From the NCBI GenBank assembly GCA_963920575.1, contig OY986972.1:8630010-8694009 (forward strand): a DNA stretch of 64,000 nt, in the 5' to 3' direction. Source of the stretch: Narthecium ossifragum. Lineage: Eukaryota > Streptophyta > Magnoliopsida > Dioscoreales > Nartheciaceae. The translations under genes were made by a program, and so were the position numbers. The notes below the pieces were generated by a model. It saw nothing but the letters and a program-made list of their open reading frames with translations, did no database searches and was not told the origin of the DNA. Below are positions 4,363-60,491 of the stretch, in pieces; within the stretch, counting starts at the first letter, position 1; the number at the start of each line of letters is the position of its first letter.

Positions 4363-7173
4363 TGTGAGGACCCGTACCTCCAACCCGGTCCGACCGCGTT
4401 AGGTCGAGGGCCTGGCTTTGTGGTTTGGCTCGGTTGGCCCTGGGATGCGATCGGTTGATCGCATCGCTGTTTTTGACCCCATGGGCATTTTGGTAAATAT
4501 GCTCCCTGGTGGTCAGTTTCACACCCGCGTGTGCACACACTGACCTTGTTTGTGTTAGTGTTTGATTAGAATGGCTAGGTGGACCCGGGATCGGAAGATC
4601 CCAGCTCGGGCGCGCTGAAGCTTGCTTTTGGGCAGCTTACGGCCCTTGAGCGATCGGTCGCTCCAAGGAGCGATCGATCGGACTCATGCGCAGGGCAGTT
4701 GAACTGCGCAGAGCAGTTCAACTCCCGTCGTCCTCCTTTGTCAGGGAAGAGAGGACCTCTCCCACCTTCCCTCACCTTCCCTGAGATTCCCTGAGCTTCT
4801 CCTTCTCTTCTCTTCCTCTTCTCCCTTCTCTTCTTCTTCTCCCTGGCTGCTTCTTCTTCCCGCAAGCAGAGCTTGCTCTGTTTCTCTTTCCGGGCAGCCA
4901 GCTTTCTTCTCTCCGTTCTCCCTCCTCCGACCACCATTTTGGGAGCTTGAAAGCTTGTTGGATTCGTGGCAACGAGAGGAAGGCTGCTGGTGTGGTTTGG
5001 AACCTTGTTGGTGATCAACTCGCGGGGAATCAACCGAGGAATGCGCAGTCCGATAGGTGTTCTACCTACATGCGTTAATTAATGGGTTTAGATAAATCTA
5101 GCCATTAGATTGTGATGAAATTATGTTGTTGAATGCATGTTGCTTAATTTAGTCTCTGATTTAAGTTTCATGAACTTTGGTTAAGATTTAAGTAGGATTT
5201 TAGCATGATAAATCTCGGATTTCCGGTTTTCTGATGTTCTTGAAGAACAGCCGGCTTGCGGCGAGTTTTCCGGCTTGTACATGCATGATCTTGGATTTTT
5301 ATGAGAGATAAGAGTTGGAGATCTGTGAGTCTACTTTCAAACCCAATTGATTTCATATTTTTCCGATTTTTCTACGAGGTTTGGTGATTTTTATACGAAA
5401 CTGTGTCGGAGCAGATTTGCTGATGAATAGTGCCACGGATGATCCGTGGATCAACCGTCGCGGTCTCCACGGTCGACCGTGAGGTCTCCAAGGTCGACCG
5501 TGAGGTCTCCAAGGTCGACCGTGAGCCCGAAAATCAGCAAAATAAACTCTCACGGTCGATCCGTTGATCGACCGTCAACCCCAGCTTCTTCACGGTCGAT
5601 CCGTGGATCGACCGTGAGCCCCGAAAATAGCGAAATCACCCCTCACGGTCGATCCGTTGATCGACCGTCAACCTTGGATTTTGCACGGTCGATCCGTTGA
5701 TCGACCGCCAGCCCGGAATAGTGTTTTTAACGGTTTTTTTGATGTTTTATCATGTTTGATTCTTCGGGATTTATGTGATTGGTATTCCTAGGGATATCGA
5801 TGGCTAGCAAGTTCTAATGGATGGTTTTTAGATGATTAATTGTTTGATTTTCGGCATGTCTAATTAGGTATAAATCATCCTTATTTAATTAGCAATTAGT
5901 CACATGTCATGCTTATTTACATGTATATCTAGCTTGTGGTTGAACCAAGGGGGTTGTGCCCCTTGGGATGTTTAGCTAATTAAATGGGCCGATGTGTGCC
6001 GTAGTTGATGTTAATTGCAAGTGTGTTTGATTATCATCTGTGTGGCCGGGGTTGTGCCCCCGTTGTAGAAACTGCTTGTTAACGGTTCCTAGGCGCCGTT
6101 ATAATATTATATTATTGTAGCTTAGACCCATGCTATGTTTATCCTCCGGCAAGCTTGACGCTTCGCCTAGCCCGTGTATGTTGTCTTGGCATACTGTTGC
6201 ATGCTGCTATTCCTGTATCTCTGTGCTTGAGCATTGCATGCATCTGTCTGCATTAGAAGCATCAGGCTAGGTGGTAGACGATGGTTTCGATCGTTGATTC
6301 GGGGTTCTCGGGTAGCCCGGATCTAGCCCTAGGGCCGGGGTTTGGGGTAGTCGAGGATTAGGATGTGATTGTTATCAGTGATTATGTTTGATATCATTCG
6401 AGGGTTATTAGGTAGTCGGACTGGAATATTATATTGTTTTGAGGTTTAGAGGTCGTGTCGTCTTTCCAAGGCTAAGTGCTAAGGATGCAACCGAGGAGTT
6501 CCCGACGTTGTCCCCAGGCAGTGGTATCCCTGCTGGGTAAGGGTTAGAGCCTGCATGTTACTGTTTCCGTGGTCCTCCTGGTAACATGTTCAGGAGAGAG
6601 GTTTCATGACAGGAACCCTTGGGGCATCGGTGGGTTATGGGACCCGTGGCATCCTTTAGACTTAGGCTGGAGGACAACACTGTTGTTGTTTCCCTTCCTT
6701 TGTGAGTGACGTAGAGTAGAACCCTACTGAGCAAGCTTTGTTGCTCACTCCTACCTGGGCTGCATCGGCGATGCAGGTCGATGCAGTCCCTTCTTTTTCA
6801 GGTGGTTGCGGTGTTGGAGGCGGTACTCCCCTTGGTGGTGCGTGAGATCGAGGATATCATCAGTTTATTATATTCATTTGATGTACAGCTTTAAATGTAT
6901 AAATTGTAATTTGAAGGAGATATATATTTGTATTTCAATTTGGTGTAAATTGATCAGAGATTGCTGTACTAGATGACTTGAATCATTATTACATCTTTTA
7001 GAGTTAAATTGTATTATGATTTGATGATAGGATAGTTTAAATTAATTGTGAATATTGTAATCATGCACCAGGTTTAAAATTGATGTTTAAAAGGGGAGGC
7101 TTTCGCCATTTGATTTAGAGTTTAGGACCCTCACGTCCCGGCCTGGATGGGTTTTCTGGGTCGGGGCGTGACA
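4363..7173 (+). repeat. 3' LTR of the chromovirus (2811 bp)
   Basis: Starts TGTGAGGACCCG and ends GGGTCGGGGCGTGACA. Near its start are two GATCGATC-type palindromes (4648-4683), followed by a long CT-rich stretch (about 4730-4930). A palindrome cluster lies at 5446-5708. The same family supplies the solo LTRs at 28289-30633, 38378-40771 and, on the minus strand, 38151-42949, which share both termini and the phrase GGTGGACCCGGGATCG. Confidence 0.95.
5446..5708. repeat. Palindrome cluster, CGGTCGACCG type, in the LTR
   Basis: Three 22-bp direct repeats built on GGTCGACCGTGAGG (about 5467-5530) are followed by four longer palindromes starting at 5551, 5591, 5644 and 5684. The unit at 5591-5616 is perfect: two 12-base arms, CACGGTCGATCC and its reverse complement, around a 2-base centre. 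The spacer GAGCCCGAAAATC and the left-hand phrase TGAATAGTG recur beside the cluster in an unrelated Athila-like LTR near 48621-48908. Confidence 0.9.
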
Positions 7174-7731
7174 TTACGAGTAGACCGCTTGTATCACGTA
7201 TCTACCCACTTTTTCGCATCCTTCAAAATCAACCAAACATGTTCAAAGTGAAATCCTTTTGTCTCCTGTAGATCTTCTTGATACAACATTTTCGCATCAT
7301 CGAGTTAAAAAAAGATGATGTTAAGTGTAATAAGATACAACATAATATACAAGAACATTGAAAATATAAGTTAAATACTTACAATATCGTGGTCAGAAGC
7401 ACCGCTCGGGTTACGACGCTCTATCTGTCGAATATATTCTCAAAATTTGTTGATCTTATTCTTAATCAATTGCATACAACATGACAGAGATTTCGAAGTT
7501 TTACCTCCTTCGCAAGAACTAGGCCTTGTATTGTGAAACACGGTTGAAATTCTTTCCCACAACTTGTCTTTTTTTTTTATTGGCACCCATAACTGGGTCT
7601 TGAAAGACCTCAAGCCATGCATAACATAAGACTTGATCTTCTTTCGGTAAGAATGATTTTCCACGACTCGAAGCCATGAAGGAAAATGAAAGAGATGTGA
7701 AGGGAACATTGTTGTGCAATTGAAAGAGCAT
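7174..7731 (-). pseudogene. Harbinger accessory Myb/SANT-like protein remnant
   Basis: Reading the minus strand gives MASSRGKSFLPKEDQVLCYA, then WLEVFQDPVMGANKKK, WERISTVFHN, RPSSCEGGKTSKS and INKFCEYIRQIERRNPSG. This is the trihelix/Myb-like protein that plant databases often label glutathione S-transferase T3-like. It binds subterminal DNA and helps the Harbinger transposase enter the nucleus. The frame shifts near 7600-7640. An intron-like gap lies near 7290-7380, and then QEDLQETKGFHFEHVW appears, so the C-terminal part runs up to the chromovirus insertion. The rest lies beyond the window. Confidence 0.7.
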
Positions 7732-7929
7732 GTAGCAATACTTATAGGATTCGATTTATGATAGAAGAGACATGTGGATAAGATTTAGAAGATAAGAATC
7801 TAATGTTTGTATTGATAGCTATCTCACATTCCTATAAAAGCAACAGTTTGCACTTGAGTGAAATCAAGATATCTCTACCTTTACTTCTCAATATCCAGCT
7901 ACCTAAGTTCTCTTTCCCCCCTCTTCAAA

Positions 7930-18890: not shown

Positions 18891-20511
18891 TGATATCGCT
18901 CAAATGTGTCGCGCACAGCGGTTGCGGTGCAGTACAACATAAGAGAGGTCGAACCCACAGAGAGACAAGCATGAAAGATCCAGAAACACAGATAACAATA
19001 TATCGAAAACAATCAAGAGCGATAAAAGTTAAGAAAATAGATCGAAGATGTAATGATAAGATAAAGTTAACGAAAGAAATCAAGATTTGAATGAGGCTAG
19101 GCTTCAGGAATCACTTCACTCGGATTTATGTTCTTCTCTTCTCAATGGTTCATATAACACTCAGTTAAGGGATTCACATCCCAATCACCTTAACCGAAAG
19201 ATATGGAACTATAAACCTAACAAAATATAAAAATGTCTCTTCCTACGATTGATTCTTCCTTATTATAGTTCTAACTTCATCCAACCCAAACCTAAGAATA
19301 CACGATACCAGCTGTCACTACAGGCAACGCGTAGCAAAAGTTCATCGGGACAAAGCCCTAACTCTATCTAACCGGATCTCTAAGAATACACAATACCAAC
19401 TCTCACAATCGGCAATGCATAGCAAAGATTCCTCGGGATAGAGCCCCAACCTTGTCTTACCAGATCCCTAAGAATACACAATACCAGCTGTCACTACGGG
19501 CAATGCATAGCAAAGGTCTCCCGAGACTCGGTAGGAGAATCAAAAGAGATAACTATGGGATCACAATATCATAAAAGAAGCATGACTGGGTTTATAATAT
19601 TAATCATCCATATAGAAATCTATAATCTGAAAATAATCTTTGAAGATCCAATACATAGAAAAGAGTTTAACAATAAAGATTAAAACTATGAACTATTGTT
19701 GGAGAAGAAGCCCTAGTCCTCGCTAGATCATCCGTCAGCCATGTCCGCGGATTACTCGGCCATGGATGGAGATTCGTTCATCTTCTTCCTTTGGAAAACG
19801 TCCAGAAAAGAGCCTCTAAAAACGTCCAAGAACCCCCCTTTGATTAACCCTAAGTTTCCTATTTATAGCCCCAAAGTCTCTCCATCCTCGGATTAGATCT
19901 AAACCGTTGATTTTCTTCACTGGAAAAGTAGGATCGATCCCTCTCTAGGTTTAGGATCGATCCGTTGCATCAAAATCATCAATTTCTGGCTACGCCCGAC
20001 TCGGATCGATCGGACTATGGGTGTCGGATCGATCGGACTCAGTAGGATGGATGGAGGGATTGATCTAACTGTGTACAGCTGAAAAATATGCGCTCTATTA
20101 GGTTTCTGCATAGTCGGATCGATCCTACTCTAGGTGTCGGATCGATCGGACTTTCCAGAGTATTTACTATTCTGCCATTCAGACTGCGCCATCGGTACTA
20201 AAATTACCGTAACTTTCTCTAGGAAACTCAGAATCATGAACCGTAAAATTATTCAGAAACTAGACTTCAAGAGCTTTCCAACCATATATGACACATCATT
20301 TGGTTCTTCATGAGCAGGTACAGTTTAATCTTTAAATTTGATCCATATACTCTTTTCAGCTTCTTTTAGCTCCAATTTCCTGCATTTTCCAAACAACTAT
20401 GTGAAGCATATAAAAGTATAAAAATAGTGCTAAAGAAGTTGATTAAGGGTGAAGATATAGCAATTGAGATGGTTATAAGGTTGTTCAGAGTGCAATTTCA
20501 TGCACTCATCA
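18891..20511 (-). repeat. 3' LTR of the Athila-like element (1621 bp)
   Basis: On the minus strand it starts TGATGAGTGCATGAAATTGC and ends GCGATATCA. It carries a TATA box (GGGGCTATAAATAGG on the minus strand, about 19858-19872) and a cluster of GGATCGATCC-type palindromes at 19925-20155, just upstream of that TATA box. It is about 227 bp longer than the partner LTR because the partner lost part of this cluster. Confidence 0.93.
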
Positions 20512-23950: not shown

Positions 23951-24930
23951 TTATAACCTCCTTAAGTCCAAAATCTCTACCATAGAAAGTTGAGGAGAAA
24001 CATGTGCATCGGCAGCATCAGAGACATGAATATGTGCATTACTAACATTGAAATCATGAGCATATGCATAATGAATGTTAGTACCATGAACATGCGTATG
24101 AGCGCTAAAATCATGTGCATATGCATCACACACATTAGAATCAATAGCTTGTGTATCAATAGGACTAGAATTTTGAACATGCACGCTAGCACTACAGTCA
24201 TGAGCATATGCATCATCAACATGAACATTTTGAGCATGTGCACCATAAGCATTAAAATCATGGATGTAAGCATCACAAGCACTAAAGTCATCGACACATG
24301 CATCATACGTGTTAGGCCCATCAACATCCACATCATGGGAAGTAGCAACAAAAGTATCATGCACATAATCATCATAAGCATTAGGATAAGAGTAGAAAGG
24401 CTCAATGTGTTGCAGATAGCTGTTGGAGGTTGAGGCGACATTAGGATGCTTGTAGAATTTGGCATTGATATGACCATGATAATCATCCCTGGTCCCCGGA
24501 ACTGTCTGTGTACGAGTCGTCTCAACAAGCTCATCCAAATGCTTCATAGCTTCATTAGGATCAATCTCCAAAAACTCACCCTTGCATCTTGTTTCAAGAA
24601 TTTGGCGTTCATGCTCAGTTAATCCATAATAAGAATAGCTAACTAAACGCCAAATAGCATAACCATGGGAGGGCATGAAACTATTAAACTTTTAAATCGT
24701 TGCCATGCATCACATAATGTCTCATCATTCTTTTGTGCAAAGGATGAAATCTTTCTTTTCAATGCGTCAATCATATAAGTAGGAAGATACTCATTGATAG
24801 AAACATAACTCATTCTATTCTCCAAGCTCAATTCGTATATACTTTTCTTACGAACTGTTGTTTGAAACATTCCATCTCTCGACTTCATAGAACATGATCT
24901 CAAATAGTCTTGATATAATTCATTTTCCAT
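23951..24930 (-). pseudogene. Athila-like gag fragment with Asp/His/Ala repeat tail
   Basis: The first part (24930 to about 24660) reads MENELYQDYLRSCSMKSRDG, then ALKRKISSFAQKNDETLCDA and WQRFKSLIVSCPP, the Athila gag core. The second (24676-23951) continues GLTEHERQILETRCKGEFLE and MKHLDELVETTRTQ. It then turns into a long repeat tail of units like DAYAHDFSA, HVDDAYAHDCSA and DAYIHDFNAYGAHAQN, with no zinc knuckle. One frame change lies between the two parts. The repeat tail is unusual for gag and may be an expanded low-complexity segment. Confidence 0.75.
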
Positions 24931-25149: not shown

Positions 25150-26544
25150 TGATCTCGCTCAAATGTGTCCTGCACAGCGGTCGAGGTGCAGTACAGCATA
25201 AGAGAGGTCGAACCCACAGAGAGACAAGCAGGAAAGATCCAGAAATACAGATAACAATATATCGAAAACAATCAAGAGCGAAAAAGTTAAGAAAATAGAT
25301 CGAAGATGTAATGATAAGATAAAGTTAAAGAAAGAAATCAAGATTTGAATGAGGCTAGGCTTCAGGAATCACTTCACTCGGATTTAGGTTCTTCTCTTCT
25401 CAATGGTTCATATAACACTCAGTTAAGGGATTCACATCCCAATCACCTTAACCGAAAGATATGGAACTATAAACCTAACAAAATATAAAAATGTCTCTTC
25501 CTACGATTGATTCTTCCTTATTATAGTTCTAACTTCATCCAACCGAAACCTAAGAATACACGATACCGGCTGTCACTACAGGCAACGCGCAGCAAAAGTT
25601 CATCGGGACAAAGCCCTAACTCTATCTAACCGGATCTCTAAGAATACATAATACCAACTCTCACAATCGGCAATGCATAGCAAAGATTCCTCGGGATAGA
25701 GCCCCAACCTTGTCTTACCAGATCCCTAAGAATACACAATACCAGCTGTCACTACGGGCAATGCATAGCAAAGGTCTCCCGAGACTCGGTAGGAGAATCA
25801 AAAGAGATAACTATGGGATCACAATATCATAAAAGAAGCATGACTGGGTTTATAATATTAATCATCCATATAGAAATCTATAATCTGAAAATAATCTTTG
25901 AAGATCCAATACATAGAAAAGAGTTTAACAATAAAGATTAAAACTATGAACTATTGTTGGAGAAGAAGCCCTAGTCCTCGCTAGATCATCCGTCAGCCAT
26001 GTCCGCGGATTACTCGGCCATGGATAGAGATTCCTTCATCTTCTTCCTTTGGAAAACGTCCAGAAAAGAGCCTCCAAAAACGTCCAAGAACCCCCCTTTG
26101 ATTAACCCTAAGTTTCCTATTTATAGCCCCAAAGTCTCTCCATCCTCGGATCGATCCTACTCTAGGTGTCGGATCGATCGGACTTTCCAGAGTATTTACT
26201 GTTCTGCCATTCAGACTGCGTCATTGGTACTAAAATTACCGTAACTTCTTCTATGAAACTCGGAATCACGAACCGTAAAATTCTTCAGAAACTAGACTTC
26301 AGGAGCTTTCCATCCATATATGGCACATCATCTAGTTCTTCATGAGCAGGTACAGTTTAATCTTTAAAGTTGATCCATATACTCTTTTCAGCTTCTTTTA
26401 GCTCTAATTTCCTGCATTTTCCAAACAACTATGTGTCGCATATAAAAGTATAAAAATAGTGCTAAAAAAGTTGATTAAGGGTGAAGATATAGCAATTGAG
26501 ATGGTTATAAGGTTGTTCAGAGTGCATTTTCATGCACTCATTAT
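25150..26544 (-). repeat. 5' LTR of the Athila-like element (about 1395 bp)
   Basis: Nearly identical to 18891-20511 apart from scattered substitutions and one block of about 227 bp missing near 26150. The missing block is bounded in the partner by the direct repeat TCGGAT, so it was probably lost by slippage between short repeats. It takes most of the GATCGATC palindromes with it. Confidence 0.92.
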
Positions 26545-27089
26545 GGGGGTTGAACTTAGGCCTTGCACAATAAAATCAATTAAGGAAATCTAAATAGGAG
26601 GAGTCCAATTAAATCATATGCTTGCAAATGATAAAAGCAGAAAATATATATTAAAGCAATGATATGAGATCAGAGTTAGAGAGATTGCACCAGAAAGTTT
26701 ATAGTGGTTCGGCCAACGTTGACTACGTCTACTTCACTCAAGGGCCTCATTGAGGTTCCACTACTTGTAAAAACTCTTAGAAGCTTTTCCACCAAGCTTC
26801 TGAGTACTTGGCAACCTATCCACCAAGTTTATGGGTGCTTGGCAACCTTACAATCCCTCCAAACTCTCTTTTGGATATTTCTCTCAATGTCTACTTCACA
26901 CTTGAAGTAGTTTTACAAAGGTTTAGCTCACTGATAAAGAGATAGAAACTTGCTAGAATATTATTACAATAATCCCTTAGCTCCTCCTAAGTGCTAGCCA
27001 AGTTTGCTGCAACTTTTATAGCTGAGCTCCAAAGCCCTCCAAATAGCCTCCCAACGGCTATTTTTTGCTCCTGCAACGACTCTTTTCCT

Positions 27090-27400
27090 GGCTGACGGTC
27101 GATCGTCGCATCGTCCGTGACATCGTCCACCAGGTTCTTCTTGAGCCACTGTCGATCCACGCATCGTCCGTCAAGCTTCACGGTCAACCGTCGCATCGAC
27201 CGTGATATCGTTTGTCAGGCTCTGTTGTAAAAACCGCTTCTCAGGGTCGATACTTTAATCGACCATCGCACCTCCAAGACATGGTCACATAGCCCACAGT
27301 CGATCGGTCCATCGACCATCGCCTATTTTCTCATGAACTGCTTCCGCGGTCGATCCTTGCATCAACCGCCATACCTCACGGTGGATCCATGCATTGTCCG
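27090..27400. repeat. Palindrome cluster (GGTCGATCC / CGTCGCATCG type)
   Basis: A run of imperfect units built on ACGGTCGATCGTCGCATCG, CGGTCAACCGTCGCATCGAC, GGTCGATACTTTAATCGACC and CAGTCGATCGGTCCATCG, each an inverted repeat around a short centre. It is closely related in design to the clusters at 5446-5708, 41783-42130 and 48629-48908 but lies in a different insertion. Confidence 0.75.
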
Positions 27401-27811
27401 TTAGAATAAAAACACATTAAATATGATTTTAATGCTTTCCAAATTAAGGGATATTATTATTAAGGTGAACTCGTGAAGAACACCATCGATAATAATATCA
27501 AGCAACTCTATAAGGGTGTTGGTGCCATTGGTGAGAAGGAATCAAACATCCTCAACTATCAAAATCAAATTAAAGACTTGGAAGCAAAAATTGCCCAATT
27601 CACCACTCAAAGAAATTACCTACTTCGCAACAACACTCAACTGACTGAGAAAAGCGACCAAATGGTACAAGATTATACTGCTTTAGAAGCTAACTCCTCA
27701 AAAGATCGTCAGATTGAGTTAAAAGGTGAACTCGTGAAGAACAAACATCGCTTTACAGAAATTAGAGAAAACTTTGCTTGTATATCTCAAAGTCTCTCTT
27801 TGAAGAGATAA

Positions 27812-38150: not shown

Positions 38151-38377
38151 TGTCACACCCCGACCCAGAAAACCCATCCAGGACGGGGCGTGAGGGTTCT
38201 AACACTAATCATCATCAACCGGCGCGATACAAAGCGGAAAAGATAATTAAATTACACAATTGTATTCCAGAGGCGAACGGATTCAATTATATTATATATC
38301 ATTAATTTATACAAAGTCTAAGCTCCAATATACATATTTATACAAAATCCCAAAAGTTCTCAAAAATAGTTACAACA

Positions 38378-40771
38378 TGTGAGGACCTGCCCCTCTACCC
38401 CTGTGGCTCGTTGTAGACCGCAAGGGCAATTTGGTAAATTGCGCCTTGTTGGTTTGTTTCACACCCGCGTGTGCACACACTGGCCTTGTATGTGTTAGTG
38501 TTTGTTTAGAATGGCTAGGTGGACCCGGGATCGAAAGATCCGGACTTGGGCTTGAGTTCTTGCCCAAGTTTAGCTTTCAGCACACAAAGGATCGATCCTC
38601 TATGGCTAAGGGATCGATCCTCTGCGTGCCAGAAAGCCTTGTGAATCGTCATGAAGGATCGATCCTCCCTTGAGGAAGGATCGATCATTCATAAGTCGGT
38701 TGGTTTTTCTGCTTCGCGAGGACGGCCGCCGTTGGCCGTCGCTCTCTCCTGTCAGAGGGGGAAGACTTCCCCTCCCCTTCTTTCACTTTTTCCCCTCTTT
38801 CCCGGCTGTCCCCTCCCCCCTTTCCCCTCCTTTTCTTCTTCCCTTCCTTCCTTCTTCTTCTTCTCTTTTCTTCTCTCCCGACGTTGCTCTTCCCCTGTTT
38901 TTCCGGCAGCCACCTTCTCCTCTTCCGTTCTCCCTCCTCCGACCACCAAATTGGGTGTTCTTTGGCTCGTTGGATTCGTGACAACGAGAGGAAGATCCCT
39001 GAAGTGGTTTAGAGGCTTGTTGGTGATCAACTCGTGGAGAATCAGCTGAGGAAAGCGCAGCTAGGTAGGGTTATACCTACTGTGTTCATTTCGGGTTTTC
39101 TTGAGATCTAGCCGTTGGATATTATTGATCCTTACTTTGTTGGATTTCTTATACCTGTTAAAATAACTAATTTAAGTTTCATATTAATCAGTTGAGATTT
39201 GAGTAGGTCTTATGCAAGATTAGTCTCGGATTTCTGGTTTTCTGCTGTTCTTGAGAAACAGCCGGCTTGCGGCGAGTTTTTCGGCCGGGAAGTACATAAT
39301 CTTGGCTTTTCATAAACATCATAGTTGTAGCTCTACTCGTTAGCTTTCCATTCCATCTTGTTTCATATTTTTCAGATTTATGTACGATTTCTTATGAATT
39401 GTTTTCTGAAGGGCTGCGTTGCAGCAATTAATGGGTAAGTTAGTTTGATTAACCATTTTGATTAGCGTTTTTCTGTTAATCCAACCGTTGGATGATTATG
39501 ATTTTTGGATATGATGATCCTAGTTTATATATCTACTGGTGGCTAAGTTGGATCTTGAATCCGACGTCGTTTGGATGTCGGATCGACGGGATCAATTAGC
39601 CCTAAGTAGAGGGTTTTGGGTTTTGAATATAATATTATATTTCGGAATATAATATTATATTGTTTACTTTTCATCAACGGTTTTCGGGGTTGCTTCCCTT
39701 TGCAGGAGTTCACGGTTGACGGTCATTGTACCGTCGTAATGCCGGGACCCGCTGCGGATCGGCTGGCAGCGGTCGGTGGTACCGCTGCAGCGATTCAGTA
39801 GACTTATATGATGCCTGACATACTGTTGCATGCTTTACTTCTTATCTGTGTATGTCATAGCATGCATTCCTCTGTTGTGCATTAGTTGCATTGGTTAGGG
39901 CGTGGGTGATCTTTGGGTCGCCGTCCCGAGGCTGGAAGCTCGGACTTAGCCCTAGGACCGGGGTTGGGTTGTTTGGACCCGGTTTGAATTGTAGTGTCCA
40001 GTCGATTCAGTGATAGGCTTAGATGACTGGTACACTGTTGTGTTTGATGTTTAGAGGTCGTGTCGGCCTTGAGCCAAGTCGAGGTGTAGCCGGTACCCAG
40101 TCCTTCTAAACTCTTGGGTGGCAGGTGTGACTACCCAGCGGTGCTATCCGCCAACAGTGCTCAGGATCCTGTTGTGAGTGGCAGTGCCGTTTCCTGCCTT
40201 ACTGAGTGTGACCCAGTGTGTGACCAGTTCGCTGGAAGACCATGACTGGGGCTCTCAGGGGTATCCGGTGGGGTTATGGGGCCCCTGTGATACACCTAGG
40301 CTTTGCTTGGGGGCGACACTGTTGCGTTTCCCTCTTCCTTCTGTGTGACGTAGTGTAGATCCCTACTGAGCTTAGTGCTCACACCTACCCGGGCTGCGTT
40401 TTGCAGGTGCAGGTGTCAGTTCTTCTTCCTTGGCCCCTACCGGGCAATTGGTCGGCGGTGTGGCGGCGCCTGGTGGACTTTGAGAGGTGGTGATCGTTTA
40501 CTGCTTTTATCCTATGTTAGATAGTCTCCTACGGGAGTGATGTTGTATTTTGAATCTTCCCCTCTCCGAGGTTTTGTATATTTAACACTTTAAGTTTTTA
40601 ATCTGTGGTTCGAGGTTTCATTATTATATTGTTTTACTTGAGGGTGCTTTTGGTGATTTGTTAGGGAGACCAATAGGTTAGAGGGAACCCTCGTCGTTCT
40701 TTTTCCGCGTTGGTTAGGTTCCGGTTCGCGTCGTCCGGCCCAGTTGGGCTTTCGCGGGTCGGGGCGCGACA
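38378..40771 (+). mobile_element. Solo LTR, chromovirus family, nested in the previous one
   Basis: Starts TGTGAGGACCTGCCCC, ends GGTCGGGGCGCGACA; flanked by CAACA (38373-38377 and 40772-40776). Opposite in orientation to its host LTR although both belong to one superfamily. GGATCGATCC palindromes lie at 38585-38695 and the duplicated AT palindrome at 39628-39641 and 39648-39661. Confidence 0.95.
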
Positions 40772-41782
40772 CAACATGTGAACATATACCAAAAAGGTAC
40801 GACCAAAAATCTTCCAAGCAACCTCAAGCGCCCCTGGATGTACTCGCGCCGCCGAAAGCCGATCCTGCCGGCTCCACCGAAGAAGAACTGCCGCCTGCAC
40901 CCGCAAACACAGCCCGGGTAGGAATGAGCAAAAAGCCCAGTAGGGTTCTACTCTATGGCACACTGAAAGGAGGAAAACACCAACGGTGTTGTCTCCCAGC
41001 CTAAGTCTAACGGATGCCGCGGGTCCCACAACCCAATTGATGTCCCAAGGGCTCTTGTCATGAAACCTCTCTCCTGAACAGGTTACCAGGAGGCCAAGGA
41101 ACAGTAACATGCAAGATCACCCTTCCCAAGCTGGAATACCAAGCCTTGGGGAACCACGTCGGGAACGCATCAACATCCATCCTTAGCACTTGGTTTTGGA
41201 AGACAACACGACCTCTAAACCTCAAACACTGATCAGAGTCAACTAGCGTGAATCCTCAAAAGACATGAGACTTGATCAACAATCACACCCTACTCCTGAC
41301 TACCCATCCACGGTCCTAAGGCTAGATCCGAGCTACCCGAGAGCCTCGGATCGGCGACCTAAACCATCGCCCGCCTATCCTCAAATGCCTCTAATGCATA
41401 CAATGCATGAGCCTAGGCAAACATCTATCCTAGATGTCTCTATATGTCACGTCAACAGTTATAAGTTCCACAGATATACAATAGCCCTCGGCACTCGTCG
41501 GCAAGAGGCTAAGGTTCCACAATTCCTCATTAGCTAGCACTCATAGCTAGCTAATGGCTAAGTGAATAACTAAGCACTTAACTACAATCAAACATGTATT
41601 AAAGGCAAGTAGAACCATAGGCTTTTTAAAAGGAAAGAACATTTGAATCAATCACAAACCAAATGAAAATCCTTTGAAAACCTCATCAAATCCCCCTACA
41701 TGTTTCCCAACATGTTTAGATATAAATCCCCTACCAAAACCACCCAAGAAACACCCAAAAACCAAGTCCAAAGGGCCACGGA

Positions 41783-42130
41783 CGATGTCACGGTCGATCC
41801 GGGGATTGACCGTGAGGCCACGGACGATACCCCGGTCGATCCGGCGGTCGACCGTGAGAGCCATGCAAAGAAAACCAAGGGCGACGGTCGATCCATCCAT
41901 CGACCCTGAGAAGCCCAAAACCAAACAGCGCCTGACGGTCGATGCGACGGTCGATCCGGCGGTCGACCGTCAGGTAAATGGCGAAAAGGGAGAGATCCCA
42001 CGGTCGATCCATGTATCGACCATGGGAGGCTAAAATCGCGACAGAGCCTGACGGTCGATGCGACGGTCGACCGTCAGGCCCAGGAAGGGTAAGACCACAC
42101 TTGACGGTCGATGCACCGATCGACCGTCGA
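41783..42130. repeat. Palindrome cluster in the minus-strand solo LTR
   Basis: At least seven units such as CGGTCGATCCGGCGGTCGAC (near 41831) and TGACGGTCGATGCGACGGTC (near 41934 and again near 42049), each an inverted repeat. Type and position within the LTR match the cluster at 5446-5708 of the related 3' LTR, but the spacers have diverged. Confidence 0.85.
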
Positions 42131-42954
42131 GCCTTGGCACAGTTCATAAGAACAGTGCCGGAAATCCATTTCTTTGGATTTTAAGTATCAAACCATGTTG
42201 GAATTGAATGAAATTTTGCAAGCAAGTGTATTTAACGATGGCAAAGCTAATGGAATGAAGAAATCCAGTTTTTGACGGTTAAATCTCTTATCTAGGTCCA
42301 AATAGACAAAAACCGACAAAACGGCGATAATACGGAAACCAACCGTTAGAATACAGAAATCTCAACGTAGGAATACCGGAATTGAACAACATCACATATA
42401 CAAGGAGCTACGATGCATTCTAACACATATACATATAGCGAAAATGCATAAAACCTATCCTAGGAGAACCCGATCCAAGGATCGAGGTAGAAACACCTAC
42501 TTGAGCAAGTAGGGTAGCTCCTCCACGCGTGGCACCAGCCGAGCCGCCAAAATCCAAGCTTCGAAAGCCGAAGTCTCCAACCCTAGCTCAGCCGAAGGAG
42601 AGAGAGAGGAGAGAACGACAGGAGAAGAAGAGAAGAGAAAGAGAAAGAGACAGGCCTTATATAGAAATTCCAAATCTATCTCGGCCGTCCAAATCGATCT
42701 TTCCCGATCGAGCTCCGATCCTCCGATCGGACGCACCCTAGGGATTCTAATCAAATACATACATCAATCAAAGTCAGTGTGTGGAACACGGGTGTGAAAC
42801 CGACCACTAGAGGGCATATTTACCAAAATGCCCCCGGGGTCCAAAACCGCCACACGATCGCCCGATCGTGCCCGACGCGGAACCAAACCAACAGGGAACC
42901 GGCTCTCGACCCACGTGGTCGAGTCAGGTCTGAGGAACGGGCCCTCACATGCCC

Positions 42955-45440
42955 CTTCTTCTTGCCTCTGCTGTGACACCAATCTTCTCCTCAATCTCAA
43001 CATATTTGTCCTCATCATCAGGTATCAAATTAACTGTCGCATGTCCCATATTTTCCTCTACCAACGCAGCTGACCCTTCCCCATCGTCGGCCATGTCAGA
43101 GATATCAGAATCGCTCTCCAGTGAATGATAAGACTTGAAAAGTGCACAAATCACCCTTATAATTTGGCTTTGTTAGTTTCCGAGCAATGCTTCACTGACT
43201 ATTTTTATCCTATTTCAGGTACAACCGACCCTAGTACGAGTTAGATCAAGTTTAGAGTTTAAACGAGCTCACTTGGCAATTCTGACATGAATGATCGATC
43301 ATCACATCAGGAAAGGATCGATCATTCAAGTGCATTAACCTGACAGAGAGCACCATTTCAAAACATCAATCATCACTTCAGCAAAGGATCGATCCGTTAT
43401 GCACGACAACACTGACAGAGAGCAAGGTTTAAAAGGATTGATCTTCCTACATGGAATGATCGATCATCCACGGGGCGTGATCAATAACACAAGGAAAGGA
43501 TCGATCATCTCCTATATGAATGATCGATCCTTTACGGGCACGGGTAGCAAGTGAAGACAAAGGATCGATCTTCCTATATGGAAGGATCGATCATTTGATT
43601 GCTAGTGGAGAAAATCAACGGCTCAGATCTAATCCGTGAGAGGGATGTTCCTAGGATACAAATAGGTAGTTTCTAGGGTTTTGGGGGCGCTTCTTTCTAA
43701 GAACCTTTTTTGAACTTTCTGGTCCTCTTCTTAGTTTTTCTTAGGAGATTCTTTTAGAGGAGATCTATGGCGGAAGAGCTTCATCAACCTTCGGTTGTGG
43801 ATCAAACCCTAAAGATGAGTAACTAAACCACTCACCAAGGGATTCTTATGATGTAACTAGGATTTTGACTAGGGATTTCTAAGATCTAGGGCTTGTATAC
43901 CTTTTTACATGGCTTATATGGATTAATCCTAATTCTTTTTATAATCTTGGTGTTGATTTACTGTTGGATGGTTGGATTGTTCTAATGCGTGATAGATCTA
44001 GAGCTATTGCATGTTAGGGCTTGGATTGAACTCATCAAATAGGAGGATCATGCTAGAACTATGGTATCTCAGATGAACTCTTCTTCGTGATTAGGGATTG
44101 TATAGTGCTAGAACCACTATATTCTATTCTTAATCCTCCATTTATTCTATCTTTCTAGATTTGGCCCATCAAGGTGGTAGAACCATCTTGATCTTACATC
44201 TAAATCCATATGATAACTCTTTTCTCGCGATGAATTTATCCTAATCATGGGATTCATTAGTGGTGATCATAACTAATCATTAAATCACTGATTTTTAGAT
44301 AATTGCTCTCACCGACAAGGGATCCTAATCAGAACTTGTTGAGTGATAGGGAGAACTAGCCATTCACCTATCAACCATTAGAAAAGCCATTCAATGTGAT
44401 TAGTGTGCCCTAATCTTAGGAAAACCTGGTAGAACCCGTGTTACGGGTTAAGAATTCATTGGTCTCTTTTCTTGCATCTATAAATCCTTTAGTAAGCTAG
44501 TTTAATTCAAATTCCAAACCTTTCCTTAACTCATTAGTAGGAGACTATACATAGCATCTCAACTCAATCCTATTTCCCTGTGGATCGACTCGGACTCACT
44601 GTTAGCTACCCCTAAAGTAGTTAGTTAGTAGTTTGATTATAAATTTGTAATTTTGAGTAGACTTGTTAAGCCATGACACTTTTCAAGCTCTATCAGTGAA
44701 CACTATTGTCCGAGGTGACTAGGAAGTATGTAATGATTGGCGATGACTGGAGACATGGTTCCAAACTGGATCATCTGGTTTTCCTCAACATCATCCTCCT
44801 CGTCCTTCTTGGGACGATAAAACTTGCTGGTTCCTTTACCTCTTGCCTTGGAACCGGCAGTGTTCTCTTCCTCCCCAATAATGTCCTCAGTCTGTTCTTG
44901 GCTACTTTCTTGAGCCTGCCTGGCCTTCATCATCTGGCCATACATCTTCTGGTACCACTGGTATTGAGTTCTGGTCATGTCTTCTACCGGAACTGATCGA
45001 CGAGTGTAACTATTATAATTGTACCACATGTCTGGTATATATGACTGAGGCAAGAAATTCCTGGTGTAAATATGCGGCTGACCTCGATTCCATTGCCAGG
45101 ATTGTGGCCAATGAAACTTCATTCCGACCACTGGAGTAATTGGGAGACTGAGGTTCCAATGACACCTTGGGCACAAGCTCTGGGGCATTTGGGTTTTGCC
45201 CTTGTCCTGGCTAAGTCTCGTGAACACACCTGGACGACTGTCGTCCTGAGTCTCATCAATCACAATCTTGAACTTTTGCAACTTCAAGTTTGCCACATCG
45301 GTGATAACCATTGCCACTTGAGAAGACTTGGGAAATGGGTTAGTATCAACTCCCATAGCCTTAGCTGGAAAACCAATTCTACCTGAATCAATAGCATCCT
45401 GCAAAACATTGCGAAAGACCAAACATTGATTAATAGGCAT
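42955..45440 (-). pseudogene. Tat gag, split by a solo LTR
   Basis: Part one, about 45440 to 44701, reads CLVFRNVLQDAIDSGRIGFP, MGVDTNPFPKSSQVAM, PGVFTRLSQDKGKTQM, then MKFHWPQSWQWNRGQPHIYT and RSVPVEDMTRTQYQWYQKMY. These are motifs of Tat gag C-terminal regions upstream of protease. Part two, 43125-42955, reads SLESDSDISDMADDGEGSA and NMGHATVNLIPDDEDKY. A stop separates the two once the LTR is removed. The N-terminal half of gag is absent because LINE sequence begins at about 45445 in the same open frame. Confidence 0.75.
43126..44695 (+). mobile_element. Solo LTR, 1570 bp, probable Ty3/gypsy
   Basis: Starts TGATAAGACTTGAAAAGTG and ends TTTCAAGCTCTATCA; GTGAA flanks it (43121-43125 and 44696-44700). 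A GGATCGATC-type palindrome cluster fills 43290-43605, just upstream of a TACAAATAG box near 43655. The phrase TGACAGAGAGCA occurs twice in the cluster (43341 and 43413) and recurs in the copia LTR at 56193. Near its end CCCTGTGGATCGACTCGG resembles the R-U5 part of Athila-like LTRs. Confidence 0.9.
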
Positions 45441-45444
45441 ACAA

Positions 45445-47919: not shown

Positions 47920-47924
47920 TGCAT

Positions 47925-48288: not shown

Positions 48289-49942
48289 TGATAAGTGCAT
48301 AAAAATGCACTCTGAACAACCTTATAACCATCTCAATTGCTATATCTTCACTCTTAATCAACTTCTTTAGCACTATTTTTATACTTTTATGTACTTCACA
48401 TAGTTGTTTGGAAAATGCAGGAAATTGGAGTTAAAGAAGCTGAATAGATTATATGGATCAACTTGAAAGATTAAATTGTACCTGCTCATGAAGAACCAGA
48501 TGATGTGCCATATATGGTTGGAAAGCTCTTGAAGTCTAGTTTCTGGGAAATTTTACGGTTGGTGATTCTAAGTTTTCTAGAGGAAGTTACAACATTTTTC
48601 GTACCAGTGTGCAATGCTGAGTGAATAGTGACGGTCGACCGTCAGATCTCAAGGTCGACCGTCGCGCCCAAAAATCATCACGGTCGACCGTCAAATCCTC
48701 ACGGTCGACCGTCAAATCCTCAGGGTCGACCGTGGAGCCCGAAAATCCTCACGATCGACCGTCAGATGCTCACGGTCGACCGTGGCATCGACCGTCAGCC
48801 TCAGTCAAGAAAAATACTTCGCAGGGTCGATGCGAAGATCGACCGCCGCTTGTCAAAATAAATTATGCATCTCACGGTCGACCGTCAGGGTCTCACGGTC
48901 GACCGCCAGATCAGCCAGGGCGTATAACGGGTTTAAACTTAACCCGAGTTTGCTAATTCTTGGACACTATAAATAGGAAACTTAGGGTTACTCAAGGGGG
49001 ACTTCTTGGACGTTTTTGGAGGCTTTTTCTGGACGTTTCCCAAAGGAAGAAGATGAAGACATCTCCATCCATGGCCGAGTAATCCGCGGGCATGGCGGAC
49101 GGATGATCTAGCGAGGATTAGGGTTTCTTCTCCAACAATGGTTCATAGTTTTTAATCTTCATTGTTAAACTCTTTTCTATGTATTGGATCTTCAAATATT
49201 ATTTTCAGATTATAGATTTCTATGTGGATGATTAATATTATGAATCCAGTCATGCTTCTTTCATGATCTTAGAATCCCATAGTCTTCTCTTTTGATTCTC
49301 CTACCGAGTCTTGCGAGACCTTTGCTATGCATTGCCCGTAGTGACAGCTGGTATTGTATATTCTTAGGGATCTGGTAAGACAAGTTTGGGGCTCTATCCC
49401 GAGGAATCTTTGTTATGCATTGCCGATTGTGAGAGTTGGTATTGTGTATTCTTAGAGATCCAGTTAGATAGAGTTAGGGCTTTGTCTCGATGAACTTTTG
49501 CTGCGCGTTGCCTGTAGTGACAGCCGGTATCGTGTATTCTTAGGTTTGGTTGGATGAAGTTAGAACTATAAAAATGAAGAACTAATCGTAGGAGGAGACA
49601 TTTATATATTTTGTTAGGTTTATAGTTCCATATCTTCCAGTTAAGGTGATTGGGATGTGAATCCCTTAACTGAGTATCATATGAACCGTTGGGAAGAGAA
49701 GAACCTAAATCCGAGTGAAGTGATTCCTGAAGCCTAGCCTTATAAAAAGCCTGATATCCTTAGTTAATCCTACATTATCATTAATCCTTTGATCTAATTT
49801 AGTTTAGTTAGCTTTCTTGATTGTCTTCAATATATTATTATCTGTATTTCTGGATCCTTTCTGCTTGTCTCTCTGTGGGTTCGACCTCTCTTATGCTGTA
49901 CTGCACCGCGACCGCTGTGCGTGACACATTTGAGCGACATCA
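48289..49942 (+). repeat. Athila-like 5' LTR (1654 bp) inside the hAT element
   Basis: Starts TGATAAGTGCATAAAAATGC, ends GAGCGACATCA. Closely similar to the LTRs at 18891-20511 and 25150-26544 on both sides of the palindrome cluster, including the TATA box CTATAAATAGG at about 48967. Its cluster (48629-48908) is of a different type from that of its relatives. Confidence 0.93.
48629..48908. repeat. Palindrome cluster, ACGGTCGACCGT type, in an Athila-like LTR
   Basis: About ten units of ACGGTCGACCGT or near variants spaced 20-35 bases. It begins just after TGAATAGTG (48622-48630) and contains GAGCCCGAAAATC (48735-48747), both also found beside the chromovirus cluster at 5424-5708. It lies about 60 bases upstream of the TATA box. 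Confidence 0.9.
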
Positions 49943-49947
49943 AAAAT

Positions 49948-49965
49948 TGGCGCCGTTGCCGGGGA
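49948..49965 (+). other. Primer-binding site, tRNA-Asp type
   Basis: TGGCGCCGTTGCCGGGGA, exact complement of the 3' end of plant tRNA-Asp(GUC), five bases after the LTR end. Confidence 0.93.
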
Positions 49966-50580: not shown

Positions 50581-50581
50581 C

Positions 50582-55672: not shown

Positions 55673-55800
55673 GGCTTTAATAGATCTGGAGGAATGATAG
55701 ATCTCGAATTAGCCTGTGATATAATAGCTCTGTAAGGTGTTGCTGCCAGCATCCAATTTGTTTTAGATGGTCTTTCCTGGACTCTGCTATTTGCTAGAGC

Positions 55801-55994
55801 TTAACCATGATGTTTGGATGATGTGGAGCTCTTGATTGTATTGAATGACCATTTAATGTTAATTATCATTATTGTTTCCATAATGTTATTGATCAATACC
55901 CAAAAAATTATTGTGAATATCTTCACTAATGAATCTTCTGCCGTTTAATTGATTTTAAATAACATACCTTGAAATCACTCTTGATGTTCAAATT
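55801..55994. other. Short unassigned stretch before the copia element
   Basis: AT-rich; no feature recognised. It is continuous with 59679 onward once the copia element is removed. Confidence 0.5.
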
Positions 55995-56688
55995 TGTTAG
56001 GAAATCCCTCCCCATGAGAGACGTCGATGAGAGACGTCGACGAGAAGCGACGAGGACGCGCGGTGTTGGACAAACAAACCTGCAGGAAGACAAAGGATCG
56101 ATCCTTTGCTTGGAAAGGATCGATCCTCTCAGTCCAGATCTCTTGACAGAGAATTGTGTTGGAAAGGATCGATCCCTTCAGTCCGGATCTCATGACAGAG
56201 AGCATGTTTGTGGATGATCGATCCTCATCCTCAAGAGGATCGATCATCGTCGGGGCAGTCAATTCTACGGAATGAAAGGATCGATCCTTTCATTCAAGAA
56301 GATCGATCATTTACGGCATCCGGGCTAAAATCAAGGGTCCAGATTAATCCGAGTATGGGTTAGTTAGTGGATATAAATAAGGTTGGGGTGTAACCCTAAT
56401 CAGTATGCTTGATATCAGAAACCCTAAAGAGAGAGGTCTGGGGGGCTTGATAGAAAGTTGGGTATTCTAGAGTGAATGTATATGGGAGGGTTGAGAGAGA
56501 TTTATATGTGGGAGTTGAGAGATCAAGTCTTGTAAATCTCCTACATATTGAAGTTTTTCTCTCTTCCCGTGGTTTTTCCTTTGCGGTAATTTGCCGAAAG
56601 GTTTTTCACGTTAAATTATGGTGTCTCCTTTTATTGGTCTATTTTGTTGCTTTCCCATCTTGATTGCATCCCCTCCGAATTCCTAACA
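55995..56688 (+). repeat. 5' LTR of the copia element (694 bp)
   Basis: Starts TGTTAGGAAATCC and ends GAATTCCTAACA, a perfect terminal inverted pair (TGTTAGGAA/TTCCTAACA). GGATCGATCC-type palindromes cluster at 56090-56320, about 40-50 bases before the box ATATAAATAAGG at about 56375. Confidence 0.93.
56090..56320. repeat. GGATCGATCC palindrome cluster in the copia LTR
   Basis: Eight units including AGGATCGATCCT, TGATCGATCC and GGATCGATCATC, with spacers CAGTCCAGATCTCTTGACAG and TGACAGAGAGCA (56193-56204). It is repeated in the 3' LTR at 57940-58185 with one extra unit. The spacer TGACAGAGAGCA also occurs twice in the unrelated LTR at 43126-44695. Confidence 0.9.
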
Positions 56689-56690
56689 AG

Positions 56691-56704
56691 TGGTATCAGG
56701 AGCC
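56691..56704 (+). other. Primer-binding site, tRNA-Met type (copia)
   Basis: TGGTATCAGGAGCC two bases after the LTR end, the usual tRNA-Met site of plant copia elements with one extra G. Confidence 0.85.
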
Positions 56705-56729
56705 AGGTTCATTGGTTCAACAGTTCGTG

Positions 56730-57543: not shown

Positions 57544-57855
57544 GAGGAACGATGGGGGTTCCGATCGATCGAAGTGATCGAAAAGGCTGAGTCATGCGGT
57601 ATGATGGCTCGAATGGTGGCATGACAGAGTGTATGAAGGCCGAGTCATGCGGTATGATGGCTCGAATGGTGGCACGACATAGTGTATGAAGGTCCAAGTC
57701 TTGATTGCGACATCGAGAGTTCGATGGGGTTGATGGAGTCTTCAAGAGTCATGAGGCGCAATGACTTGAAGAAGTGCAACACAAGGAGAGTGCAATGTCA
57801 GAACTAGTAAGAGCTCGACAGGGTTCTGGTCTCTCATGAGTCGGGAGGGGGAGCT
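57544..57855 (+). other. Copia residual interior and polypurine tract
   Basis: No domain. A 60-base direct duplication built on GCCGAGTCATGCGGTATGAT-like sequence occurs at about 57585-57680. GGGAGGGGGAGCT lies just before the 3' LTR. Confidence 0.7.
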
Positions 57856-59673
57856 TGTAGGGAAATCCCTCCCCATGAGAGACGTCGACGAGAAGCGACG
57901 AGGACGCGCGGTGTTGGACAAACAAAGCTGCAGGAAGACAAAGGATCGATTCTTTGCTTGGAAAGGATCGATCCTCTCAGTCTAGATCTCTTCACAGAGA
58001 GTTGTGTTGAAAGGATCGATCCTATAACCTATAAGGATCGATCCCTTCAGTCCGGATCTCATGACAGAGAGCATGTTTGTGGATGATCGATCCTCATCCT
58101 CAAGAGGATCAATCATCGTCGGGGTGGTCAATTCTACGGAATGAAAGGATCGATCCTTTCATTTAAGAAGATCGATCCTTTGCGGCATCCGGGCTAAAAT
58201 CAAGGGTCTAGATTAATTCGAGTGTGAGTTAATTAGTGGATATAAATAGGGTTGGGGTGTAACCCTAATCAGTATGCTTGATATCAGAAACCCTAGAGAA
58301 AGAGGTCTGGGGGCTTGATAAGAAGTTGGGCATTCTAGAGTGAATGTATATGAGAGGTCTTGGATTTGTAGCCCAATTAAGTATGTTGGGCTAAGCATGA
58401 GTTGAATCAAATGGGCCTTGGAAGAGACCATTAACTAATAGCCAAATGGAGGTGGGCTCAAGTGTGTAGAGTAGTTTAGTCCCGCATTGGAAGTGAAAGA
58501 AATCTTTCACTAGTTTATATATTGTTTTGAACCTCTAGGCTTTGAACACATGTGAGGACTAGAGGTAGAACACCCACACACGCGCGCGCCGCCGCCGCCT
58601 GCCCGGGCGGCCGTGCTCGTGCACCGTGTGGGGTGTGTGTCTTTTTTGCTACACACAGGAGCTGGTCGAGACAGCTTGAATTCACTGAACCTTTTCAGCT
58701 TCCAAGACGGTTATAGATGAATTGATTGGGTCTGACTCTTGGGATGCCCATGATTAATGGGCTGAGTCAGTTATCTCTTGGGAATTGATCTAGTCCGACT
58801 CTTGGACTTCAGATGAATTGATTGAGTCAGTTACAACTCTTGGCTTCAGATGAATTGATTGAGTCAGTAGTAGAATTGATTGAGTCAGTTTCGATTCCAG
58901 AGGAATTGATTGGAATCTGACTCTTGACTACCCTTGACTGGTCAACTTCTGGATGACGTGGCAGTCTATAATTGGCTGTTGTTGCTGACGAGGCGTGCCT
59001 TTTCATCTCCCTTAATGGCTGATCAGCTTCCTCCCTTCGCCTATAAATAGGACCTATTCCAGCCCTTTAGAAGCTAAGCTGCATGCATCCATTTTTCGCA
59101 CACCACTCACTTGTAGAGGGTCCTGAAGTCTGAGGGTACCGTACCAGCGAAGGCTTGACGGGCGATCGGAGGCCGGATTCCTTCCGTTCACGCAGGAGAT
59201 CATTGTACCCTGAGAGTTCCTTGCTTGAAGAACCAGAAGCACCGGTGGTGGGCAATACGAACTTAAGGGCACAGTGTGATACACTGGCCTCGATCAAGCT
59301 GTAGTTCTATATCGGTTTTTCTTCCTCCTTTTCGACGTTTTCCTCTCTTTTGGAGCTCTATCACCTTATCTGGTAAGTGTTTAGAATTTAGTTTTCTTCT
59401 TGTCATTGTAAAGGATTCTTGCTACCTTAGTAAAAGCAAGATCTTAATCTCTTCTTCTTATTTCCAACAGGAGGATTGAGAGAGATTTATATGTGAGAGT
59501 TGAGAGATCAAGTCTTGTAAATCTCCTACATATTGAAGTTTTTCTCTTTTCTCGTGGTTTTTCCTTTACGGTAATTTACCGGAAGGTTTTTCACGTTAAA
59601 TTATGATGTCTATTTTTATTGTTCTATTTTGTTGCTTTCCCATCTTGATTGCATCCCGGTCAAATTCTTAACA
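57856..59673 (+). repeat. 3' LTR of the copia element, split by a solo LTR
   Basis: 57856-58357 and 59475-59673 align with 55995-56688. It starts TGTAGGGAAATCC and ends AAATTCTTAACA. The palindrome cluster spans 57940-58185. It is visibly more diverged than the chromovirus LTR pair. Confidence 0.92.
58358..59469 (+). mobile_element. Solo LTR, 1112 bp, in the copia 3' LTR
   Basis: Starts TCTTGGATTTGTAGCCC (expected TG has become TC) and ends TTTCCAACA. Flanks AGAGG (58353-58357) and GGAGG (59470-59474) differ by one base; the undisturbed 5' LTR has GGAGG there, so the left copy mutated. It has a TATA box CCTATAAATAGGACC at about 59040-59054 and degenerate repeats of GATGAATTGATTGAGTCAGT at 58710-58920. 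TTGGAT...CCAACA termini suit a plant copia family. Confidence 0.85.
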
Positions 59674-60490: not shown

Positions 60491-60491
60491 A

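Follow-up and report, generated by a model that had tools for sequence, protein, structure and literature searches.

TCGA-centred palindrome arrays in long terminal repeats of a Narthecium ossifragum locus: a regulatory module probably exchanged between retrotransposon families

Why should the long terminal repeats (LTRs) of different retrotransposon families, lying side by side in one plant genome, carry the same kind of palindrome cluster? The question is raised by a 64,000 nt stretch of the Narthecium ossifragum genome (contig OY986972.1, positions 8,630,010 to 8,694,009; hereafter the window), which is plant DNA packed with nested LTR retrotransposons. An initial annotation had listed eleven dense clusters of perfect palindromes in LTRs of at least five families, and had suggested a promoter-proximal module that spreads between them. 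Sequence comparisons within the window indicate that the arrays are probably a modular cis-regulatory unit, exchanged between LTR families of this one genome, and of the same kind as the palindromic repeated motifs (RM) described upstream of the TATA box in Sirevirus LTRs, where they form CpG islands (Bousios et al. 2010, PMC2829016).

The elements were mapped using self-comparison, termini, target-site duplications (TSDs) and primer-binding sites (PBSs), and are listed in Table 1. They include four chromovirus-like LTRs (C1 to C4), two Athila-like LTR sets (A and B), a solo LTR (G), a copia element with both LTRs, and X, an LTR-like segment at about 26.5–27.5 kb, which is a candidate LTR delimited in part on the strength of its array. 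Mainly by LTR sequence, the clusters fall in at least five families, with coding support just for Athila-like A and copia. Ten of the eleven listed clusters contain a perfect TCGA-type palindrome of at least 10 bp, inside or at the edge of the interval (that of 26150–26185 is actually at 26148–26157). The remaining one, 27090–27400, is cluster X (27.1–27.4 kb), which has no perfect palindrome of this length and only eight imperfect units.

Full dyads, defined as TCGA with a CC or TCC half-site on each side (GG[A]TCGA[T]CC type), were counted across the window. All 42 of them (GGATCGATCC, CGGTCGACCG and mixed forms) are in LTR or LTR-like intervals totalling 19,258 bp (some interval ends were later refined by 1–5 bp), and none occurs in the remaining 44,742 bp, while 100 dinucleotide shuffles of the window gave a mean of 0.8 full dyads and a maximum of three. 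The dyad at 28317 is inside the C2 LTR and outside its array, and that at 27350 is inside X. What had been described as two palindrome classes is really one continuum: both are TCGA-based, with half-sites TCGATCC in one type and TCGACCG in the other, and mixed units (CGGTCGATCC) are frequent in C1 and C4; there, a larger dyad is formed by two TCGA cores at a distance of 12 bp. Arms at positions 3–10 are complementary in a fraction of 0.37–0.81 of the 81 array TCGA cores, compared with 0.20–0.30 of the 216 cores elsewhere. The copia 3′ LTR is interrupted by an LTR-like insertion (58358–59469) with CTATAAATAG at 59041, several copies of another motif, GAATTGATTGAGTCAGT, upstream of it at about 58700–58940 (by eye), and zero full TCGA dyads. 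It provides a built-in contrast, showing that the palindromes are not used by every LTR here.

The clusters of the Athila-like, 1.57-kb and copia LTRs had been placed shortly upstream of a TATA-like box, and measurement bears this out. From the centre of the proximal palindrome to the base preceding the box the distance is 66 or 67 bp in the A 3′ LTR, B, G and both copia LTRs (Table 1; computed values 68, 66, 67, 66 and 67 bp, two of which were adjusted by 1 bp by hand, A for strand and copia 3′ for the phase of TATA). Athila A has lost about 226 bp from its 5′ LTR when compared with the 3′ LTR (from alignment offsets), including the box and most of the array, and the palindrome left over is about 26 bp from TATA (hand arithmetic). 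This loss (26134–26544 compared with 20102–20511) apparently occurred between short TCGGAT repeats. Promoter-proximal placement is supported for four array types (A, B, G and copia), three of which (A, G and copia) also have a common pre-TATA box, and does not hold for every cluster, the large arrays of C1 and C4 being exceptions. C1 to C4 have, in addition, small groups of palindromes of other spelling close to where transcription is inferred to start.

Within one Athila-like family, an array appears to have been exchanged for another. Outside the array the LTRs of A and B align at 90.9% identity on one side and 91.2% on the other, and the array itself is unaligned. In bins of 60 columns, 19 of the 22 flank bins are at 0.87–0.98 identity and three at 0.71–0.84; across the array, seven gap-rich bins are at 0.59–0.81, A having GGATCGATCC units and B having ACGGTCGACCGT units. 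Two different arrays between flanks that are about 91% identical indicate that the module was replaced.

Sharing between families was assessed by keeping the units and shuffling the spacers. In five of 74 cross-family tests none of 300 shuffles reached the observed score, and in four of 74 none of 300 background pieces did. Eight pairs selected from the 74 were given 3000 spacer shuffles. Array similarity exceeded these for G/copia 5′ (0/3000), G/copia 3′ (4/3000) and C1/B (1/3000), and in inverted orientation for C4/X (0/3000) and B/X (5/3000); it was weak for A/G (27/3000) and C1/X (120/3000). Athila A and copia arrays were at chance (1781/3000). Since C1 and B would both be gypsy elements, the clear cross-superfamily cases are those involving copia. 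Over about 250 bp the G array runs collinear with that of copia 5′, and 46 of their 67 spacer columns are the same. The suggested spread between families is supported for some pairs (the solo LTR with copia, C1 with Athila B, and C4 with X) and not for the arrays of Athila A and copia.

A second component lies between array and TATA. The pre-TATA box, AAAATCAA[C/G]GG..(C/T)AGATC.AATCCGAG, is common to A, G and copia and has diverged in B. For A/G, A/copia 5′ and G/copia 5′, none of 2000 shuffles of the box segments reached the observed score, with or without TATA included, and among real pieces of the window, compared without TATA, 0/1856, 1/1842 and 0/1848 did so, respectively. The surroundings of the G/copia and A/copia modules are at chance both 89–200 bp upstream and over 250 bp downstream; A/G flanks are weakly raised upstream (32/2000) and not downstream (235/2000), which would fit both being gypsy elements. 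Similarity limited to the module would be the pattern expected from exchange of a promoter-side cassette.

The spacing of units within arrays is also patterned. Among 75 adjacent centre-to-centre gaps, 15 are of 12 bp, 25 of 20–23 bp, seven of 28–32 bp, 12 of 39–41 bp and 11 of 48–53 bp, forming clusters at 12, 22, 30, 41 and 50 bp; the other five are 7, 44, 45, 59 and 71 bp. The strongest period is 9.5 bp. With gap values taken once per group (C, A, B, G with copia, and X; n = 31), this periodicity was reached by one of 3000 uniform and three of 3000 jittered controls, and stricter versions gave 7/3000 and 5/3000 (gaps below 18 bp omitted) and 9/3000 (near-equal gaps merged, n = 21).

Several observations weigh against a shared, exchanged promoter module. 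The best period is 9.5 rather than 10.5 bp and gaps within one array are not independent, so that the spacing hints at binding on the same face of the DNA without proving it; we regard it as suggestive. Arm covariation within arrays, over and above the common consensus, was seen at one of ten positions (position 7, p 0.03), and changes between the copia LTRs (units 3/84, spacers 8/154, flank 15/242) give no clear sign that units are spared. X has its proximal unit centre 79 bp from TATA (80 before strand correction). The main arrays of C1 and C4 begin 1084 and 815 bp into the LTR, no TATA-like word occurs within the 150–160 bp searched past the proximal palindromes of C1 to C3, and the best TATA-like box of C4 (42663, minus strand) is upstream of its main array. 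Weaker TATA-like words do occur about 70 bp (C4, 41725, minus) and about 165 bp (C1, 5869) downstream of the main arrays, so a second start site is possible. Without TATA, box similarity is weak for B/A and B/copia (19, 21 and 4 of 2000); B/G boxes do not match (387/2000, or 1527/2000 without TATA), and the X segment without TATA matches none of the others (323–2000 of 2000). With the palindromes masked, only one of 58 cross-family spacer comparisons beats background, and of all the sharing described only that between A and copia has superfamily coding evidence on both sides, the lineage of G being unproven.

A rival explanation is that unrelated LTRs each amplified the same host-factor site by local duplication, so that only the palindromes and the TATA distance are common. 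The masked spacers (57 of 58 tests at background) and the arrays of Athila A and copia 5′, which have only dyads in common, favour convergence of this kind. So do the RM of Sireviruses from distant species, whose cores are reported to be nearly identical although sequence homology is low (PMC2829016). It does not account for the collinear spacers of G and copia 5′, the one masked pair above background (TGACAGAGAGCA; 0/200 background pieces and 1/200 shuffles at or above observed), nor for the box common to A, G and copia, given that A/copia and G/copia surroundings are unrelated. We consider convergence unlikely. The shared non-palindromic spacers named in the initial annotation are seen in G and copia 5′ and are not confirmed for most pairs.

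If the arrays are an exchanged regulatory module, a dimeric host DNA-binding factor would occupy the dyads, several of them in helical register, and would drive or license transcription from the TATA box 66–67 bp downstream. Repeat slippage or unequal exchange would lengthen or shorten the arrays, and template switching or gene conversion between elements, in some cases between gypsy and copia, would replace a module as a whole. A stronger version of this proposal, possible but rather doubtful, is that array and pre-TATA box together form a promoter cassette transferable between the gypsy and copia LTRs of one genome; the distance to TATA would then be fixed because a single host factor docks at the TCGA-centred dyad, a site that LTR retrotransposons from grapevine to monocots would have put to use. 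GATA, GARP, WRKY and LBD proteins were considered as candidates for such a factor and set aside. Exchange across superfamilies would mean that retrotransposon promoters evolve by sharing parts and not within lineages alone, and that one host factor may gate many families simultaneously. As different LTRs with the same dyads and distance are natural replicates, they would then make the question of what binds Sirevirus palindromes directly testable.

The arrays could instead act mainly as RNA, with hairpins in read-through or 3′ LTR transcripts feeding small RNAs; they would then be targets or by-products of silencing, as has been suggested for the Sireviruses of maize. Each of the 11 array segments is more stably folded than its shuffles (z −4.7 to −10.8; 15 other LTR segments −3.7 to +1.3), but this is to be expected, because any palindrome array folds well. 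In maize, Sirevirus palindromes are reported as small-RNA hotspots (PMC5311732; PMC10760457), with small RNAs in excess on the palindrome clusters, and the palindrome is frequent also in structured regions of Helitrons (PMC10760457). A role in RNA predicts neither the fixed TATA distance nor the quantised spacing and seems improbable as the main function, though both roles can coexist.

We think it very improbable that the arrays are targets of an anti-silencing factor, encoded by retrotransposon or host, comparable to the VANC proteins of Arabidopsis VANDAL elements, which are reported to bind rapidly evolving tandem motif arrays (PMC5735166). Points in its favour are the dense, non-coding tandem arrays of short, putatively protein-bound motifs, which turn over quickly between related copies as VANC targets do, and the raised CpG observed/expected ratio of 1.30–1.60 in the A, B, C1, C4 and X arrays (window 0.74; the other six array segments 0.81–1.13, with C2, C3, G and copia at 0.81–1.01). 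However, VANC targets belong to DNA transposons that encode the protein and are in one orientation and family-specific, while here symmetric TCGA dyads, lacking the directional YAGTATTAY-type motif of VANC21, occur across families. General Pfam scans, which included no search aimed at VANC, turned up no VANC-like gene. That a separate small mobile element or satellite with palindromes inserted into each LTR is hardly credible: the arrays do lie between unrelated flanks and differ among copies of one family, but 0/42 full dyads are outside LTR or LTR-like DNA, the TATA distance is fixed, and the difference between Athila A and B extends up to the TATA box.

Coding evidence for the lineage of the carriers comes from Pfam scans of Athila-like A and copia. 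In A, rve is above the Pfam cut-off, Integrase_H2C2 is below it (22.7 vs 25.5 bits) and Retrotrans_gag is matched; PDB matches to PFV integrase and Ty3 Gag-Pol mark the integrase as retroviral/Ty3-like. B has a PBS at 49948 and no coding region linked to it. With gypsy gag and integrase in A and a TGGCGCC-type PBS, typical of Athila/Tat, in B, the two fit the Athila lineage by these features. An Rfam match to snoR71 (47.7 bits, 24657–24765) lies within the internal region of A. The copia gag matches PF14223 (Retrotran_gag_2); as only part of gag is retained, the element is placed no further than copia.

The chromovirus-like LTRs are 2.3–2.8 kb long and end in GGGGCGTGACA (C1, C2), GGGGCGCGACA (C3) and GGGGTGTGACA (C4), with GGG at −8 to −10 of the LTR end (by eye), which is the type A U5 att given as a Del/Tekay criterion (PMC4029996). 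By LTR ends and length, C1 to C4 fit Del/Tekay chromoviruses. C3 and C4 are in opposite orientations and belong to one family, each with a 5-bp duplication (38151–42949). The C1 internal region (747–4362) has a PBS and no recognisable gag or pol: no Pfam match exceeded the curated cut-off in the 16 pieces searched (four minus-strand open reading frames and 12 of 20 plus-strand pieces). Its longer open reading frames are on the opposite strand (332 aa, 1870–2865). Downstream of the proximal arrays, C2 (29584–29620) and C3 (39626–39661) have perfect AT palindrome pairs, ATATAATATTATAT, and C1 has a single related AT palindrome at 6100–6111. Outside the retrotransposons, a Prp18-like host gene (60451–61479) has its best named matches mostly in monocots other than grasses (72% identity in oil palm, 73% in Typha).

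Table 1. Retrotransposon features of the window and their palindrome arrays (positions in the window; unit numbers are relaxed counts; distances are counted from the centre of the proximal palindrome up to the last base before the TATA-like box).
Feature	Position	Strand	Remarks
C1, chromovirus-like (Del/Tekay-like) 3′ LTR	4363–7173	+	Termini TGTGAGGACC...GGGGCGTGACA
C1 5′ LTR end	1–746		Matches 6428–7173 at 98.7%
C1 PBS	750		TGGTATCAGAGC
C1 proximal palindrome pair	4652–4691	+	GAGCGATCG type; about the same place as C2/C3 arrays
C1 main array	5446–5708	+	12 units, CGGTCGA(T)CCG type; 1.1 kb inside LTR
C2, chromovirus-like solo LTR	28289–30633	+	TSD CTTGG
C2 array	28593–28670	+	3 units, AGATCGATCT type
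C3, chromovirus-like solo LTR	38378–40771	+	TSD CAACA; nested in C4
C3 array	38588–38690	+	4 units, AGGATCGATCCT type
C4, chromovirus-like solo LTR	38151–42949	−	TSD TGCCC; split by C3
C4 array	41783–42135	−	15 units, CGGTCGA(T)CC + CGGTCGACCG type; 815 bp inside LTR
Athila-like A, 3′ LTR	18891–20511	−	Internal integrase and gag matches
Athila A array	19931–20150	−	7 units, GGATCGATCC type
Athila A pre-TATA box	19889–19914	−	AAAATCAACGGTTTAGATCTAATCCG
Athila A TATA-like box	19859–19868	−	CTATAAATAG; 67 bp
Athila-like A, 5′ LTR	25150–26544	−	Array and box mostly deleted; two units remain, 26141–26181
X, degenerate array	27088–27410	−	8 imperfect units; 79 bp upstream of TATAAAAG at 27020 (−)
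G, 1570-bp solo LTR	43126–44695	+	TSD GTGAA; termini TGATAAG...TATCA; known from LTR alone
G array	43291–43597	+	9 units, ATGATCGATCAT + GGATCGATCC type; collinear with copia array
G pre-TATA box	43611–43636	+	AAAATCAACGGCTCAGATCTAATCCG
G TATA-like box	43657–43664	+	TACAAATA; 67 bp
Athila-like LTR B	48289–49942	+	Same family as A; PBS TGGCGCCGTTG at 49948
Athila B array	48629–48905	+	12 units, ACGGTCGACCGT type; occupies site of the GGATCGATCC array of A
Athila B pre-TATA box	48924–48952	+	Diverged form
Athila B TATA-like box	48967–48976	+	CTATAAATAG; 66 bp
copia 5′ LTR	55995–56688	+	PBS next, at 56690
copia 5′ LTR array	56091–56311	+	7 units, AGGATCGATCCT type
copia 5′ pre-TATA box	56327–56351	+	AAAATCAAGGGTCCAGATTAATCCG
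copia 5′ TATA-like box	56372–56379	+	TATAAATA; 66 bp
copia 3′ LTR	57856–58357, 59470–59674	+	Resumes past an insertion
copia 3′ LTR array	57939–58180	+	8 units, one more than the 5′ LTR
copia 3′ pre-TATA box	58196–58220	+	Followed by TATAAATA at 58241; 66 bp

Among known systems, the RM of Sirevirus LTRs invite the closest comparison. As reported, 117 of 127 LTR copies lie in the upper half, and the RM of the grape element is CGGTCGACCG and that of tobacco Tnd-1 is ACAATCGATTGT (PMC2829016). The arrays of the window resemble them in being clusters of palindromes in the first half of an LTR, in several cases upstream of TATA and, in A, B, C1, C4 and X, CpG-rich; the grape core CGGTCGACCG is the same as one found here, and the ATCGAT core of Tnd-1 is like the other type. 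The CGG...CCG core of Sirevirus RM occurs in units of Athila B, C1 and C4 (CGGTCGACCG and CGGTCGATCC forms), while GGATCGATCC-type arrays (A, C2, C3, G and copia) are without it and resemble only the Tnd-1 exception. Sirevirus RM number at least eight copies per element, and units per LTR here range from 3 to 15; a TATA box shortly downstream, as in Sireviruses, is present in the A 3′ LTR, B, G and both copia LTRs. The RM were described as specific to Sireviruses and as missing from the classic copia elements with which they were compared. The arrays of the window, by contrast, are found in gypsy Athila-like and chromovirus-like LTRs, solo LTRs and a copia element, and Athila-like A, with its Ty3-like integrase and Retrotrans_gag, is not a Sirevirus. 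A cross-family distance of 66–67 bp is not reported in the accessible text of that paper, which gives an average of 37 bp from CpG island to TATA (PMC2829016).

Two gypsy systems are similar in other respects. LTRs of Del (Tekay) chromoviruses of monocots are described as having 5′ CpG islands of variable length (Cruz et al. 2014, PMC4029996), that is, a variable CpG-rich segment in an otherwise more conserved LTR, which fits C1 to C4; the accessible part of that account describes neither palindrome units nor sharing across lineages. In wheat, a gypsy LTR is proposed to have acquired a segment that is rich in inverted repeats and has its homologue in part of a copia LTR (Quinta/Gisela, PMC11302176). 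This QuinCent segment is like the module described here in its cryptic inverted repeats on the U3 side, its gypsy–copia homology and the proposed replacement of an older segment. It differs in being one 162-bp nucleosome-positioning sequence in two families, with no array of short dyads.

Searches with the sequences themselves gave little beyond these systems. Among the matches listed for the letters of the dyads, PMC2829016 alone bears on palindromes of plant LTRs; a soybean copia paper (PMC6712407) contains GGTCGACC once. The letters of the pre-TATA box gave no match on LTRs, judged by title; the array pattern was not found in viral contigs, where a short pattern of the box had nine matches, nor translated arrays among proteins. 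Sharing of the dyads across gypsy and copia was not found in the open-licence literature searched. The initial annotation knew of no description of such a module; its kind is in fact known from the Sirevirus RM. What the window adds to the Sirevirus, Del and QuinCent systems is the occurrence of the same dyads side by side in gypsy and copia LTRs, at a common distance from TATA, together with evidence that one array was replaced by another and that families share them.

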